A stretch of 33,755 bases of DNA from a virus, in IMG/VR virus record IMGVR_UViG_3300017613_000582, positions 1 through 33,755 of that record, one strand, 5' to 3'. Of the stretch, positions 17,478-32,153 are shown piece by piece. The position numbers and the translations under genes are program-made. The notes under the pieces are model-generated. The model did not search any database, was not told where the DNA came from, and saw only the letters and a list, made by a program, of their open reading frames with translations. Numbering within the stretch: the first letter of the stretch is position 1; each line of letters starts with the position of its first letter.

Positions 17478-18830
17478 TTACGCTAGGATATTATCCACAC
17501 GGAAGATACGGTAGTACTGGTTAGACTTAGCAGTAGCTAGACCATTGGCTGGTGTAGAACCAACGAATGGGTTAGACACCATACCATAACGGGTTTTGAA
17601 ACCAATTTTTGGTTGGAAGGTGTTTTCGCCAATTGCTTTCATCATTGTAAGCGGTACGTATGGGCAGTAGAACACACCAGCGTCATAAGGATTAGTACCT
17701 TTGTATCCGACTGTTACGTAGTCTACAACCGCATAAGGATCGATATACACTTTGGTACGACCATTAAGCACACCGGCGAAGGTATTGCCTGTGTCATCAA
17801 CTTGTAGGTTAGCAGAGATAGCTGGAGCGTAATCCAACATTCCACCAGCAGCTAGGGCTGTTGCAACATCAGAAGAACAAACTACTACGTTACCTTTACC
17901 TCTACGAGTTTCTTTAGCGATTACGTTTGCTTCACGTTCAAGCTGAACCATAAGGCCCTTGAACTTTTCAACAGACCAGCGACCATCAGCATCAGTACTA
18001 AGATTGAAGATACCGTTGATTGCAGTGTTGCCTTGGAGACAACCAGTCTTAGCTTGGCTGTTGATTGTACGAACAACTTCACGGTTGATTTCAGCAAGAA
18101 GCTCAGTTGACAAGATGTTTGCCAATTCAGTTTCTGCATCAAGTCCGTGGATAGCACGTAGGTCTTGAGCCAATTCGATTGAGTATTCAGCCTTCAGCGC
18201 ACGAGACTCCGCAGTCACAGTGCTTTTTTCGATGGTGAAACCCATTTCTTTGAAAGCATCAGTTGTACCAAGAGCTTCGGCAGAGTCGGTAGTCATACCT
18301 GTACCAAAGATATCAGTGTAACGAGCATCTTCGATGCTTGAGTCAGTAGTACGTACTGGAGGACCAGCAGCAGAGTCATCAGAGATACCTGATAGACCAG
18401 AAGGACCAGCAGAAGCAGAGTCAGCACCAGTACCGTCTTGAGTACCAGACCAGCCTGTACGGGGTTCGTTAAATTGCGCTTCAGTTGAAGACGTTGCACC
18501 AGAGCCATAACGTGCTTTCATTGCAAAGATTAGTCCTGTTGGACCAGTCATAGGCTGAACGCCTGCAATGTCATACGCCATAAGATTAGGCGCAGAACGT
18601 CTAACCAAGCTAATTAGGACAGGGTCCCAGTTAGCAGCCGAGTTGGTGCTGTTTGATGGCGCAGCTTCCGCTAGAAAGTTCATCTGTTCACGCTCTTGAC
18701 CAAGAGCCTTTTCAGTGTTTTCGAGAAGAACAGCAGTTACTGAACGGCGGTGCAGATCAGTAATTTTCCCAGATGTTTCTTCATTAAGAACTGGCGACCA
18801 TTTTTCGATTAGTTTATCATAAGATTCCAT
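17478..18830 (-). CDS. 23: Major capsid protein gp23
   Basis: The 450-residue protein is the T4-type major capsid protein precursor, which forms the hexamers of the head. MESYDKLIEKWSPVLNEETS starts a helical pro-region. A gp21-type cleavage site, LAE before Ala (residues 53-55), lies in QMNFLAEAAP. The mature part begins AAPSNST and continues with NWDPVLISLVRRSAPNLMAY, DIAGVQPMTGPTGLIFAMKA and a long G/S/T-rich insertion region (about 110-170). Later motifs are LKAEYSIELAQDLRAIHGLD, GKGNVVVCSSDVATAL and the C-terminal GFKTRYGMVSNPF. It is the last gene of the late block and precedes the terminator. Confidence 0.97.
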   Translation of the reverse strand: MESYDKLIEKWSPVLNEETSGKITDLHRRSVTAVLLENTEKALGQEREQMNFLAEAAPSNSTNSAANWDPVLISLVRRSAPNLMAYDIAGVQPMTGPTGLIFAMKARYGSGATSSTEAQFNEPRTGWSGTQDGTGADSASAGPSGLSGISDDSAAGPPVRTTDSSIEDARYTDIFGTGMTTDSAEALGTTDAFKEMGFTIEKSTVTAESRALKAEYSIELAQDLRAIHGLDAETELANILSTELLAEINREVVRTINSQAKTGCLQGNTAINGIFNLSTDADGRWSVEKFKGLMVQLEREANVIAKETRRGKGNVVVCSSDVATALAAGGMLDYAPAISANLQVDDTGNTFAGVLNGRTKVYIDPYAVVDYVTVGYKGTNPYDAGVFYCPYVPLTMMKAIGENTFQPKIGFKTRYGMVSNPFVGSTPANGLATAKSNQYYRIFRVDNILA

Positions 18831-18861: not shown

Positions 18862-19923
18862 TTATTGATTGTTTGTTTTCTTTAGGGCTTCAACATAACG
18901 TGACATTGATTCGGTTACTTCAACAGCATCCTCTTCTTCTTCTTCGTCTACGTCATCTAGAATGGATGATTGTGGCTTGCCCTTGGTGAAATAAGATTCT
19001 TTAACGGTTTCCACTTTCATTTTGAAAGATTCTTCGTCATCGAAATCTAGGCTTTCAACAAGATCACGCAATTTATCTACTTGTGTATCAGCAAGACCAT
19101 TTGAAGCTTCAAGCACGATTGATTCACGCTTGTACCCTTCTAGTTCTTCTGTCATACTAATGATCTTACCAGTTTTGCTGTTAAGTTCAGTTTCAAGAGA
19201 TTCGACTTGTACAGAAAGATCGTCTACAAGATCAACCTTTTCTTCAGGAACAGTGATGTAGGATTCAGTAAAGATGCCTTTTAATTTGGTCATGAAATCT
19301 TCACTAATCTCAGTTCTGAGACCAGTTTGAACCGCAACCTTATTGGCGTCCATCCATTCTTCTACAACGAAGTTCAAGTAACTATCGACATTTTCCACGA
19401 GTTCAGACCTCTGTTCTTCAATAGAAACTTCGAAACGATCCTGATAGTCGAGTTCCAATCTGGAAATCTCTTCTTTCAATTTCGATTTGATAGCAGCTTC
19501 AAAAATTACAGTAGACTTTTCTTTAAATTCATCTGACAATGTAGCTTCTGATTCTTGCAATGCTTTCATATCATCGCTGAAATCATAAGAAACATCTTCA
19601 AGTTGATCTTCAACATCATCATTCTCTTCTTCTAGCTCTTCACCAGAAAGAACAGAATGAAGTTTGTCGAGGTCTTCCATTGTCATTTCTGACATTAGAT
19701 CATAAAGTTCTCGTACAATACCAGACTTAGATTTTGGTGCTTTTTTGTCACCACCATCCTTGTCACCTTTACGCTTTTTAGCCTTTGGGCCAGTATCGCC
19801 AGCTTTTTCTACCGATTTGATAGAAGCCGTTTCATCTGGACCCGGATCAGTTTCTTTGCCTTCATCGATTTCATTCTCGTTATCGTGAAGTTCAACATCA
19901 TCCTTGAGTTTGTTTTTAGGCAT
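18862..19923 (-). CDS. 22: Prohead scaffold/core protein gp22
   Basis: The 353-residue protein is extremely acidic and helical. It has a polar, K/D-rich N-terminus (to about residue 70), a long coiled coil (about 100-300) and a terminal segment (VDEEEEEDAVEVTESMSRYV, then EALKKTN). That composition and the place between gp21 and gp23 define the T4 gp22 scaffold, which fills the prohead and is degraded by gp21. Several I/L-x-E sites suit that protease. Sequence conservation in this family is low, so synteny carries much of the call. Confidence 0.9.
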   Translation of the reverse strand: MPKNKLKDDVELHDNENEIDEGKETDPGPDETASIKSVEKAGDTGPKAKKRKGDKDGGDKKAPKSKSGIVRELYDLMSEMTMEDLDKLHSVLSGEELEEENDDVEDQLEDVSYDFSDDMKALQESEATLSDEFKEKSTVIFEAAIKSKLKEEISRLELDYQDRFEVSIEEQRSELVENVDSYLNFVVEEWMDANKVAVQTGLRTEISEDFMTKLKGIFTESYITVPEEKVDLVDDLSVQVESLETELNSKTGKIISMTEELEGYKRESIVLEASNGLADTQVDKLRDLVESLDFDDEESFKMKVETVKESYFTKGKPQSSILDDVDEEEEEDAVEVTESMSRYVEALKKTNNQ

Positions 19924-19933
19924 GTTATACTCC

Positions 19934-20599
19934 TTACATGTTTTTTTTAATTAACGAGAGGAAATTTTTGAATTCTCGGATTTGCACTTCTGGTGCATAT
20001 GTCCGACCAACATTCTTAATTTCAGTCTCCATTTGTTCAATCTCTTGTGCCTCAATGATGCCATTGTTCCACACCCATTCTACTCCTTCCATAATGCCAT
20101 TAACAAAAGCGTTTGGAGCAGAGGGGTCTTGGACAATATCAATGGTATTGAGCATGAAATCTTCACGCACAACCATAGCATCTCCAGACTTAGCAAGAGT
20201 TCCCATTCCACGAGTTGAAACACCTAGTTTAACACCACCATCAAGAAGACCTTTTACAATCTCCCCATTAGGAGTATCTAAAATAGATGCTTTACCCACC
20301 ACTTGTTTATTACCTTCAATTCTTAGATCGGTAATGAGGTGGGATACTTTGTCGAGATTCACGGTAGGACCTTCGGGGTGGTTTAGTTCACCAACAGCCC
20401 GTCCTGTTTTTACCTGATTCTCGTAATATTTGTTTACCGCTTGTTCCATAACAGATTTGGGATATACTCGACCATTTCTGTTTTTCTCATCATATGCAGC
20501 AAAAGAACCTTCGATATAATACTTCTTAGGCACATCTTTAGTGGCCGCTTCAGTAACGAATTCAATATCTTGTTCTGTGTATTCGGTAATTAGTTTCAT
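19934..20599 (-). CDS. 21: Prohead core protease gp21
   Basis: The 221-residue length matches T4 gp21, the serine protease that matures the prohead. The assemblin-like fold signatures are KYYIEGSFAAYDEKNRNGRV, the catalytic His in VGELNHPEGP (His74) and the catalytic Ser in LGVSTRGMGT (Ser128), followed by VREDFMLNTIDIVQDPSAP. N-terminal FVTE before AATKD is a possible self-cleavage point. The start overlaps the end of the upstream small gene (ATGA). It cleaves gp23, gp22 and possibly the internal-protein-like products noted here. Confidence 0.95.
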   Translation of the reverse strand: MKLITEYTEQDIEFVTEAATKDVPKKYYIEGSFAAYDEKNRNGRVYPKSVMEQAVNKYYENQVKTGRAVGELNHPEGPTVNLDKVSHLITDLRIEGNKQVVGKASILDTPNGEIVKGLLDGGVKLGVSTRGMGTLAKSGDAMVVREDFMLNTIDIVQDPSAPNAFVNGIMEGVEWVWNNGIIEAQEIEQMETEIKNVGRTYAPEVQIREFKNFLSLIKKNM

Positions 20600-20847
20600 T
20601 TTTTAATTTTTCCAAACTTGGCTCTAAGTTCGTCGCCCATCATTCGACTAACAGGCTTTTCCTTTTTCGTAGGAAGTTTTTTACCAGTTTTTGCTGATCT
20701 GCCCATTGCTTTTGCATGTGCAGCATCTACTTTACGGGTAGTCTTTAATGGGTCTTCTTTGTGTTTGATTTTAGGAGCCTTATTACGCTCACTAATTTCC
20801 TTTCCAGCCTCTGAAAACCCTTTTCTTATTTCTTTAAACGTTTTCAT
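20596..20847 (-). CDS. Small basic prohead-region protein with internal-protein-like N-terminus
   Basis: The 83-residue protein is very basic (about one third Lys/Arg). It starts MKTFKEIRKGFSEAGKEISE, close to the T4 internal-protein targeting peptide MKTYQEFIAE. FSE before Ala and ISE before Arg are possible gp21 cleavage sites. The remainder (KHKEDPLKTTRKVDAAHAKA, then TGKKLPTKKEK) looks disordered and suits DNA binding in a packed head. It overlaps both neighbours by 4 nt. Equivalent basic proteins occur near gp21 in related phages. Confidence 0.75.
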   Translation of the reverse strand: MKTFKEIRKGFSEAGKEISERNKAPKIKHKEDPLKTTRKVDAAHAKAMGRSAKTGKKLPTKKEKPVSRMMGDELRAKFGKIKK

Positions 20848-21035
20848 TTGCTTAGATCAATATACTCTTTGGCTGATGCAACTGCTTCTTTTTCACTTTT
20901 GTAAGTGTCAATCTTATCCCCATCAACAAATAGAGTATGAGATGATCCAGTTTTCGTCAGCTTCCAAGAAACCCCCTTATATTTACCAGAGTTTGATTCA
21001 ATCAACTCTTGGCGTATTTCCTTAAACGTCTTCAT
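20844..21035 (-). CDS. Small prohead-region protein with internal-protein-like N-terminus
   Basis: The likely start is the ATG at 21035 (MKTFKEIRQELIESNSGKYK), 3 nt after an equally possible ATG and within the end of the core-protein gene. The 63 residues have a short N-terminal helix identical over MKTFKEIR to the next gene. Then comes a small beta/alpha domain (YKGVSWKLTKTGSSHTLFVD, DKIDTYKSEKEAVASAKEYI). LIE before Ser (residue 13) is a candidate gp21 site. After processing a compact 50-residue domain would remain in the head. Function unknown. Confidence 0.72.
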   Translation of the reverse strand: MKTFKEIRQELIESNSGKYKGVSWKLTKTGSSHTLFVDGDKIDTYKSEKEAVASAKEYIDLSK

Positions 21036-29867: not shown

Positions 29868-30257
29868 TTATTCTGTTATGACAACATCAACCGGTTCGGC
29901 CTTAAGTTCAACCAATTCATCTTTGGCTTCGATTAGCATATGCTGTAGATCAGTAGTTGATCCTGTGAACAAATTATTGGTTATTTGTTGGGGGGCGTTG
30001 TCCCCGCCAGCATCCTTGTAGGTCTTGCGTTCTGTAATTGACTTATGGGTCTTACCAAGTTCTAGAATTTGACTATTGATCTTTGCCACATTAGCCAATA
30101 GACCTGAATAGACTTCAACAGCCCTTGGGTGTTCAGACTCTCTCAATATCGCTTTAGCAAAATCCAAGGCTTCCTTGGCTTCCTCAAGAATTTCATAAAG
30201 AGTACTTCTAGCTCTTTCATAATCTGTGTCTGCAAAATTTTCTTTAGTATCGGTCAT
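29868..30257 (-). CDS. 16: Terminase small subunit gp16
   Basis: The 129-residue helical protein has DYERARSTLYEILEEAKEAL, SEHPRAVEVYSGLLANVAKI and LELGKTHKSITERKTY. These are the landmarks of T4-type gp16, which oligomerises and regulates gp17 cutting and ATPase. It contains an N-terminal helix-turn-helix-like bundle, a central coiled coil and a flexible C-terminus. The start overlaps gp15 (ATGA). Confidence 0.93.
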   Translation of the reverse strand: MTDTKENFADTDYERARSTLYEILEEAKEALDFAKAILRESEHPRAVEVYSGLLANVAKINSQILELGKTHKSITERKTYKDAGGDNAPQQITNNLFTGSTTDLQHMLIEAKDELVELKAEPVDVVITE

Positions 30258-31030
30258 GCGCTATCCACCACTCTGGTTAGGGTTTCTACGAATGTATAAT
30301 CTGAATCTACTGATACTGGGCTTGGGTCAGTTGTTACCACGAGTTGTGAATACTGAATATCAGAATCATCGGTAAAGAAATCGACATAAGCAGTTTCGAT
30401 AATTTTACCTTCAGAAGTTGGTCCATAGAAATCTATTTTCATTTCAAAATCCAAGGTGTATATGATAGTACGTCTGGATTCTACTGCTCCTTCAAAATCA
30501 TCAGAAAAGTTAACTGCTTGAAGGGTTATTGGAACGTCATCCTTGATTAGAGGATAATCATCCAATGGTTTTATTGTTAAGGAATATTGTGGTTTGAAAT
30601 ATGGAACAATTTGTTCCACTAATTGTAGAGCATCATCATGATTTTTTGCATAGATGTTTAGCTGGAAGCCAATGTTATATGGGGTCTTGGCATAAATTCT
30701 GGTTCGGCTTGAAGTATCCCCAGTCACTCCCCCAACAATACAATTATTCATCTTATTGATTTGACGGGTAGGATCATATGTTAATGAAGTTATTTCAAAT
30801 GACATTCTGGGCAGCTTGATAGCCACCACATTCAATTCGTTTAGATCATTCTTATTGTCTTCTTCAAGACGTTCAATAAACTTACGCTTTGGAGCATAAG
30901 ACAACGGTACTTTAATTTGAGAAGTAGAAGCCCCGCCTTTATTCTTACGAATAACATACATGTTGTTGAACAGGGCACCAAAGGAACCAACTGATCTACG
31001 GATACGCTCATGATAGAAATAGCTAAACAT
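30254..31030 (-). CDS. 15: Tail completion and sheath stabiliser gp15
   Basis: The 258-residue protein begins MFSYFYHERIRRSVGSFGAL and has IKVPLSYAPKRKFIERLEED, KLPRMSFEITSLTYDPTRQI and a later YNIGFQLNIYAKNHDDALQL with VEQIVPYFKPQYSLTIKPL. This is the T4 gp15 pattern; gp15 hexamers cap the tail and join it to the neck. Length is close to T4's 272 residues. A small gene sits immediately before it. Confidence 0.94.
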   Translation of the reverse strand: MFSYFYHERIRRSVGSFGALFNNMYVIRKNKGGASTSQIKVPLSYAPKRKFIERLEEDNKNDLNELNVVAIKLPRMSFEITSLTYDPTRQINKMNNCIVGGVTGDTSSRTRIYAKTPYNIGFQLNIYAKNHDDALQLVEQIVPYFKPQYSLTIKPLDDYPLIKDDVPITLQAVNFSDDFEGAVESRRTIIYTLDFEMKIDFYGPTSEGKIIETAYVDFFTDDSDIQYSQLVVTTDPSPVSVDSDYTFVETLTRVVDSA

Positions 31031-31281
31031 TATTCGTACCCATTATCCCCAAGATTAATTGTTTTCAAAATAAAGTATTCTGGCCCAGCAGTGGACTTAA
31101 TCCAATAACCTGTACCTTCTTTTCGTGGTCTACGGTCAGTTCCTATTTCCATTTGAACCCAATTTAAAGCATCTCGTTTAGTATTATAATAACCTTCAAT
31201 ATTCCAACTACCATATGGAGATGAAACCACCGCCCAAGGTTTTCTCTTAGCCTCACTTATATATGTTTTAAACGTAATCAT
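31030..31281 (-). CDS. Small protein with internal-protein-like N-terminus
   Basis: The 83-residue protein starts MITFKTYISEAKRKPWAVVS. Its first ten residues closely follow the T4 internal-protein peptide (MKTYQEFIAE): an aromatic at 4, a Tyr/Phe at 7, Ile at 8 and Glu at 10, followed by Ala. ISE is a good gp21 site. The remainder is a compact beta/alpha domain (YGSWNIEGYYNTKRDALNWV, GTGYWIKSTAGPEYFILKTI). It overlaps gp14 by 4 nt and gp15 by 1 nt, so it is made with late structural genes. Function unknown. Confidence 0.75.
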   Translation of the reverse strand: MITFKTYISEAKRKPWAVVSSPYGSWNIEGYYNTKRDALNWVQMEIGTDRRPRKEGTGYWIKSTAGPEYFILKTINLGDNGYE

Positions 31282-32153
31282 GATGGGTCTCCAAACGGAT
31301 TGGTCTCAGAGAAATCCAAGAAACCAACATCAGAGTCAAAGGCATTATTCTGCCAGTGGAAGTCCCCAAGGTCTTCATCAATAGCTATAATGGTTCGTGT
31401 ATCGGATGTATTGGAATGGGTTATGGTAGAGCCTACCGTGAATAGATGATAATCCCCATCGGTTGATGATACGTGAGCCAAGGATAGAATATCATCTGAA
31501 TCATCCCATGCCGTGATCTTACCAGAAATGACAGTACCATCGGAAAGAGTTTGGGTTACCGTTTCTCCGAGGGTAACAAGGGTATTACCAGCAGAGTCTG
31601 ATACCGTAAGCTTGACTTCATAGCCAAGAGTTTCTATCACATCAATGTTTGCAATTCCTGTATCGATATTTTCATCATTGTATTCGAACAATTCACAATG
31701 TAATTTAAACGTTGGGAAGTTACTCAACTGATAAAATGGTTGCTCATGTTCTGTTCTCATAATTTGAAATAATGATCTGGATAGGGGTAAATAGATCAAA
31801 TCCCCTTCCCTTGGCATAAGGGTATCAATGTCATTATTGTTATCTGTGATAACGTTCTTCCAACGCTTCTTGGCTAGAATAAAAGTTGCTTGATCCCGAA
31901 TTTCAATACCAAATTTCTGGAATAGATCACCTTCTCCTGCAAATCCATCATAGGATTCCACATACATTTCGATCTTATAAGAAGAGGAAAATGTAGAAGG
32001 AATATCATCTCCCAGAATAGTATCTTCGTTGACAATAGTTCTTGGTAGATAGTACACATCATTGCCATACATCTTCAAACTCTCTATGACAAGGTCTTCA
32101 TAAAGGTTCTGTTCACTTTTTACTGCATATGAGAAATACGGGTTAGTTGCCAT
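31278..32153 (-). CDS. 14: Neck protein gp14
   Basis: The 291-residue protein begins MATNPYFSYAVKSEQNLYED and has LVIESLKMYGNDVYYLPRTI, DDIPSTFSSSYKIEMYVESY and EGDLFQKFGIEIRDQATFIL. RPREGDLIYLPLSRSLFQI-type residues follow, then QPFYQLSNFPTFKLHCELFE. Those elements match T4 gp14, which with gp13 closes the filled head and accepts the tail. It is a little longer than T4 gp14 (256) owing to a variable insertion near residues 185-260. It lies between a membrane-anchored gene and a small gene. Confidence 0.94.
   Translation of the reverse strand: MATNPYFSYAVKSEQNLYEDLVIESLKMYGNDVYYLPRTIVNEDTILGDDIPSTFSSSYKIEMYVESYDGFAGEGDLFQKFGIEIRDQATFILAKKRWKNVITDNNNDIDTLMPREGDLIYLPLSRSLFQIMRTEHEQPFYQLSNFPTFKLHCELFEYNDENIDTGIANIDVIETLGYEVKLTVSDSAGNTLVTLGETVTQTLSDGTVISGKITAWDDSDDILSLAHVSSTDGDYHLFTVGSTITHSNTSDTRTIIAIDEDLGDFHWQNNAFDSDVGFLDFSETNPFGDPS

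Follow-up and report, generated by a model that had tools for sequence, protein, structure and literature searches.

The N-terminal tag of internal proteins is already known in T-even phages. In the T4 record, ipII and ipIII begin MKTYQEFIAE/A and ipI begins MKTFKEFTSTTTPVSTITE/A (slashes mark where the putative cut would fall), and a further start of the same type, MKTFKEFIKE, is found besides ipII and ipIII at 19101-19130 on the minus strand of NC_000866.4. The first ten residues of IPIII are enough to direct it to the head. Within the tag, positions 4 and 7 serve targeting and positions 8 and 10 serve processing, and the protease gp21 cleaves after L/I-X-E (PMC9026906). The proteins behind this leader are diverse: IPI, IPII and IPIII inhibit different GmrSD restriction enzymes and have only the leader in common (PMC12373910), and IPIII without its tag acts in the host cytoplasm (PMC9391042). 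A review of T4 suggests in general terms that T4-like phages may use the capsid-targeting sequence (CTS) to import proteins of various kinds (PMC9026906). In our literature search this review was the only source in which capsid targeting and cyanophages occurred together, and no description of the tag on cyanophage enzymes was found at the level of titles and abstracts (preprints and most subscription papers lay outside the search). What is new here is how widely this known tag is used on enzymes of T4-like phages that are distant from T4, with an 83-residue gene from an uncultivated-virus record as a further member.

An 83-residue reading frame in the neck operon

The window, which is the whole stretch of DNA that we analysed for this genome, comprises one IMG/VR record (33,755 bases). 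It contains a T4-like late operon that reads, from right to left, gp13, a 217-aa ORF, gp14, an 83-aa ORF, gp15, gp16 and gp17 (Table 1). Among named phages, Phage C48C1 has the closest gp14 and gp15 (46.8% and 50.2% identity). The original prediction had placed a small ORF at this point, giving no strand, with 4- and 1-nt overlaps with its neighbours. Such an ORF is present on the minus strand and encodes 83 aa, and as stated it shares 4 nt with gp14 and 1 nt with gp15. It has an ATG start with GGAG upstream, and its product begins MITFKTYISEAKRKPWAVV... (full protein, MITFKTYISEAKRKPWAVVSSPYGSWNIEGYYNTKRDALNWVQMEIGTDRRPRKEGTGYWIKSTAGPEYFILKTINLGDNGYE). Codon log-odds trained on eleven core genes were positive, out of the six frames, in the ORF's own frame only.

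Table 1 Features of the window discussed in the text, with strand and basis of assignment.
Feature	Position	Strand	Basis
83-aa ORF, putative tagged internal (head-packaged) protein	31030..31281	-	ORF, codon usage
N-terminal tag of ten residues, MITFKTYISE, resembling a capsid-targeting sequence; cut predicted to follow E10	31252..31281	-	
Predicted mature domain, 73 residues	31033..31251	-	AlphaFold2 without alignment, low confidence
gp14 neck protein, upstream neighbour	31278..32153	-	PHROG 460 E 2.9e-77; PF11649
gp15 tail sheath stabiliser, downstream neighbour	30254..31030	-	PF16724 E 5.8e-71
gp21 prohead protease, predicted tag-cleaving enzyme	19934..20599	-	PF03420 Peptidase_S77 E 7.9e-35
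gp22 scaffold, to which the tag is predicted to dock	18862..19923	-	PF25623 E 2e-60
gp23 major capsid protein	17478..18830	-	PF07068 E 8.5e-144, domain from residue 66
Second strict-tag ORF, MIEFRHYMME/K, 120 aa	2098..2460	+	

The first ten residues carry F4, Y7, I8 and E10 and are followed by A11, so that the tag agrees with T4 at all four functional positions and its end, ISE/A, has the L/I-X-E motif of gp21. Two claims made at the outset are borne out here: MITFKTYISE followed by alanine does resemble MKTYQEFIAE, agreeing with ipII and ipIII in its aromatic residues at 4 and 7 and in I8, E10 and A11, and ISE, described as a good gp21 site, fits L/I-X-E. The gp23 of the same phage has LAE/A at residues 53-56, just before its conserved domain, which starts at 66. 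The window encodes both the gp21 protease (PF03420) and the gp22 scaffold (PF25623). Cleavage after E10 would leave 73 of the 83 residues, the length that had been predicted.

We searched widely for relatives of the body of this protein. None was found among phages by tblastn at E 10, or in IMG/VR or the GTDB genomes; Pfam, PHROGs and PADLOC gave no match, and the best PDB sequence scored E 0.34, none being significant. AlphaFold2 without an alignment gave a pLDDT of 47.6 for the whole protein and, for the mature part, a low-confidence beta-beta-alpha-beta-beta-beta model (mean pLDDT 59.6), for which Foldseek returned no fold match at E 0.001. A partial likeness of this fold to T7 Gp2-type RNA polymerase inhibitors (E 0.62, PDB; E 0.32 for a phage RNA polymerase inhibitor) was set aside as too weak to use, and a suspected likeness of the body to DUF2188/AP2-like domains was unsupported in Pfam. 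Kinship of the body with a conserved small gene between gp20 and gp21, and with SSCSM1_30/SSZBM1_191, was likewise not supported, with hhalign aligning residues 1-15 only (E 0.03) and residues 1-11 only, respectively. A body with no relative in all collections searched is what might be expected if the ORF were no gene and the tag match were due to chance; against this stand the tight overlaps on both sides, the GGAG upstream of the start, codon log-odds that are positive in its own frame only and a chance tag count expected to be far under one, and we regard this explanation as having next to no likelihood.

Two other small minus-strand ORFs (20596-20847 and 20844-21035) lie between a prohead-like ORF (PHROG 1064) and gp21 and start MKTFKEIRKGFSE and MKTFKEIRQELIE, with an N-terminal form closer to that of T4 ipI. 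A family aligned from 12 other stretches was obtained for the second, which is probably a conserved head-cluster gene. The original prediction had mentioned further tagged candidates, and these two ORFs may be the ones meant; both start MKTFKEI..., a different and weaker form, so that their assignment to this tag class is not clear-cut.

We next turned to the gp14-gp15 junction, using 79 gp14 loci with gp15 downstream. The gap between the two genes exceeded 60 bases in 26 of these loci and was under 60 in 53, and 22 of the 26 wide gaps held an untagged gene of a single type. This conserved gene (seen among loci L003-L082) is 79-91 aa long, with FDFGFTAVDE near its start and LWPxRL near its end; other gp14-gp15 relatives had no junction gene or different short ORFs. 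A role in the neck or tail, as a structural part or a chaperone working with gp14 and gp15, with the resemblance to the tag incidental, would suit both the frequency of junction genes (26 of 79 gaps above 60 bases, 22 with the FDFGFTAVDE-type gene) and the overlaps with gp14 and gp15, which suggest translational coupling. However, the gap is short in 53 of the 79 relatives and in C48C1, where gp14 directly adjoins gp15, so that a core neck part is not needed at the junction. A homologue of the 83-aa ORF's body occurred at none of the 79 junctions, the ORF matched no neck or tail family in Pfam or PHROGs and had no conserved presence, and the tag also occurs on enzymes encoded apart from the neck genes. 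We consider a neck role unlikely.

One of the junctions (L013) carries a tagged 97-aa gene beside the FDFGFTAVDE-type gene, and L181 has the same arrangement; five more members of the 97-aa family lie on stretches on which gp14 and gp15 were not both seen. When this family was compared with the window protein by hhalign, residues 1-12 were aligned and nothing beyond (E 4.2e-5), which points directly to a tag that can be exchanged at a single locus. We note that a 202-aa HAD-like hydrolase with the strict tag (MKSFYSFITE/A, MESFKSFISE/A) is encoded directly upstream of gp14 at L021:300-908 and L034:9393-10001, so that tagged genes occur at more than one junction of the neck operon.

Tag enrichment at ORF starts and the range of tagged bodies

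Lack of genome-wide enrichment among short ORFs had been named in the original prediction as a ground for giving it up; we found instead a strong enrichment of the tag where ORFs begin. We scanned IMG/VR with a DNA pattern for M-I-x-F-x-x-Y-I-x-E (ATGATHANNTTYNNNNNNTAYATHNNNGAR), which fixed residues 1, 2, 4, 7, 8 and 10 and partly 3, and conservation at these positions is therefore by construction. At least 123 sites on at least 120 stretches matched. A site counted as an ORF start if the ORF ran for 40 aa or more and was preceded by fewer than 40 open codons. By this rule, 106 of the 122 usable sites among the matches listed were ORF starts; of the others listed, 11 ran into a stop within 40 aa and 5 had a longer upstream open frame. 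A codon-permuted control, in which the same codons followed ATG in reverse order, gave an ORF start at only 6 of 88 usable sites (complete IMG/VR scan, 90 stretches). A looser pattern had 49 matches in 31 records, versus 4 for the pattern read backwards, a count in which C48C1 enters once, three records had been chosen for a tag already seen and some matches are not gene starts. The strict tag stood at an allowed start in 13 of 958 predicted genes (three gp14-selected contigs, phage C48C1 and the window), versus 0.11 expected from its rate inside proteins, the true expectation being somewhat higher because alternative starts within 20 residues were allowed. Within the window, which is a 33.8-kb record and not the whole genome, two of 62 predicted genes are strictly tagged; the second of them (Table 1) gave no family above noise in Pfam or PHROGs.

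Positions left free by the search were compared in 76 tags among the matches listed, and the window tag, with K5, S9 and A11, fits this group. K5 occurred in 46 of them and S9 in 15 (tied first), while residue 11 was most often D (16), followed by A (14, second) and G (12). Stretches with a C48C1-like gene accounted for 95 of the 106 tag ORFs but for only 3 of 17 other sites among the matches listed, or for 78 of 106 and 1 of 17 after dropping one C48C1 gene that has its own tag variant. A C48C1-like gene was also present on 39 of the 90 control stretches, so T4-like DNA is common in tag and control sets. The shared N terminus might instead be a general phage feature that serves translation start, folding, or docking to a membrane or host factor, and not a head label. 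The variable residue after the cut is in keeping with this, as is the fact that, in the parts of the literature covered, targeting and cleavage of the tag are tested in T4 only. It is opposed by the few ORF starts that the codon-permuted control yields, by the concentration of listed tag ORFs on stretches with C48C1-like genes and by the detection of tagged proteins in S-CREM2 virions (see below), and we hold it to be very unlikely.

The tag is joined to many unrelated bodies. Single-linkage clustering by blastp at E 1e-3, in which separate clusters may still share distant homology, placed the 106 tagged bodies among the matches listed in 33 clusters, or 27 when limited to stretches with C48C1-like genes; the body of the window protein is separate and forms a further cluster. 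Pfam was run on nine representatives. It assigned HD_4 (L147), AAA_33/zeta toxin (L185), DUF5824 (L177), a HicA toxin (L173, on a stretch without C48C1-like genes) and DUF6267 (L145, with a KWDGAP stretch that we read as ligase-like); a cytidylyltransferase-like domain (L142) fell just under the cut-off and a HAD phosphatase (L133) under it, and L160 and L013 matched no Pfam family. Tagged bodies thus range from small domains without a known family to enzymes of more than 400 aa. The idea of one modular tag on several different domains stands, and it extends to these large enzymes and beyond the late genes.

In C48C1 (OQ984149.1), tagged genes are clustered within 7 kb at 61.8-68.4 kb and encode a KWDGAPA protein, a basic protein beginning MLSFKQFVSE, a cytidyltransferase, a GTTPQQWG protein and a 105-aa protein. 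The cytidyltransferase (OQ984149.1 63514; L083:13514) is annotated from MNPPTIGHG, and an in-frame upstream GTG gives MIKNFSQYLLE; start-site annotation may therefore hide tags.

Tagged proteins in published virion proteomes

Tagged proteins other than this one have been detected in virions by published mass spectrometry. The study of cyanophage S-CREM2 lists 52 virion proteins identified in this way in its Table 3 (PMC10665884), and such lists may include co-purified contaminants according to their authors (PMC10665884, PMC9602691). Among the 219 CDS of this phage the strict tag occurs on three, all of which (3/3) are among the 52 virion proteins, with none in the 167 undetected genes. These are a SAM hydrolase (S-CREM2 gp6, MKDFDSFLEE), an APH/ChoK-like kinase (S-CREM2 gp14, MKRFDAFLTE) and a cytidylyltransferase (gp154, MKNFSSFLTE), and they are the only three proteins that the table classes as regulatory (PMC10665884). 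As a test the enrichment is modest (one-sided Fisher p 0.013). Near-tags are found on gp13 (MKDLHSFLTE) and gp136 (MQTFSMFFSE), which were detected, and on gp175 (MNWLKNYLIE), which was undetected; a widened pattern, picked after the strict result, gave 5 of 52 versus 1 of 167 (p 0.003). The Cas9-annotated gp12, detected in virions, has LRFASFMAE/A in its first 26 residues, and S-CRM01 and S-N03 have a similar stretch in genes adjoining the kinase. The S-CRM01 kinase, said to be in the virion (PMC10665884), begins MISFDQFLSE, and its S-N03 relative begins MKSLKLFEGQ and is without the strict tag.

Further cases came from other phages. The NMNAT of S-SCSM1, found in virions (PMC9602691), begins MKSFLQFLKE; the cytidylyltransferase of S-SZBM1, detected in virions (PMC9146016), has the near-tag MRFRQFIIE/A, one residue shorter. 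Family T4-GC190, detected in S-SM1 (PMC3037559), begins MKKFSAFLTE in Syn33 and, in a different form, MKKFSEIIEA in the Melnitz relative. Two tagged sets bore no virion mark: SSCSM1_30 (MKTFKQFMSE, 106 aa) in the portion of the S-SCSM1 data covered, and SSZBM1_191/192 in the part of the S-SZBM1 table covered. S-PM2 gave no match to the looser tag pattern.

A putative cargo label and its relation to known systems

We propose, at a probability of roughly 0.8, that the product of the 83-aa ORF is a T4-type internal protein packaged into the head and that its tag is, in T4-like phages of this group, a general cargo label carried by many unrelated domains. For the 83-aa protein itself, we infer packaging, cleavage, injection and function as follows. 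The first ten residues would act as a capsid-targeting sequence and attach the protein to the core of scaffold within the prohead; gp21 would then cut after ISE (E10) and leave the 73-residue domain in the head; and this mature domain would exit with the DNA and act at once in the new cell. The injected domain would most likely work against host defence or for early takeover, a role that is a reasonable guess and should be taken only as such, since the body has no match and its fold model is weak.

For T4-like phages of seas and lakes more broadly, we lean towards the view that one short, exchangeable N-terminal label constitutes a general delivery system. Cargo would enter the head, lose its label to gp21 and reach the host cell together with the phage genome, and neck-gene junctions would be one kind of site at which new cargo genes settle. 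The cargo would comprise dozens of unrelated effectors and enzymes, among them nucleotidyltransferases, ligase-like and HD-domain proteins, zeta-toxin-like kinases, Cas9-like proteins, APH kinases, SAM hydrolases and small domains of no known family. If this is true, the set of injected proteins becomes readable from sequence, and the label would predict which proteins uncultured phages inject. It would also widen the T4 internal-protein idea from small coliphage anti-restriction proteins to a broad delivery system, and would offer a direct route to candidate anti-defence proteins of the first minutes among uncharacterised genes. The authors of the cyanophage studies left undecided whether the virion enzymes are cargo or contamination, and a label that marks them would help to settle the matter.

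Three known systems bear comparison. The inner-body proteins of the giant phages phiKZ and SPN3US are carried in the head and have propeptides that a protease resembling gp21 removes, although the cut motif in phiKZ is S/A-X-E (PMC9026906). The cyanophage virion enzymes (cytidylyltransferase/NMNAT, APH-like kinase and SAM hydrolase) share the same N-terminal tag class and are reported in virions; they have large bodies, whereas that of the 83-aa ORF is small and without a known family, and the source papers, in the sections covered, name no packaging signal for them. From IPI, IPII and IPIII of T4, to which the window phage is only a distant relative (it is closest to Phage C48C1), the 83-aa ORF differs in that its body matches no Pfam or PHROG family, its gene lies in the neck operon and its packaging is a prediction from sequence. 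It is like them in carrying an N-terminal tag of ten residues, aromatic at positions 4 and 7 and with I8, E10 and, as in IPII and IPIII, A11, and in its small accessory body, and both phages have gp21 and gp22.
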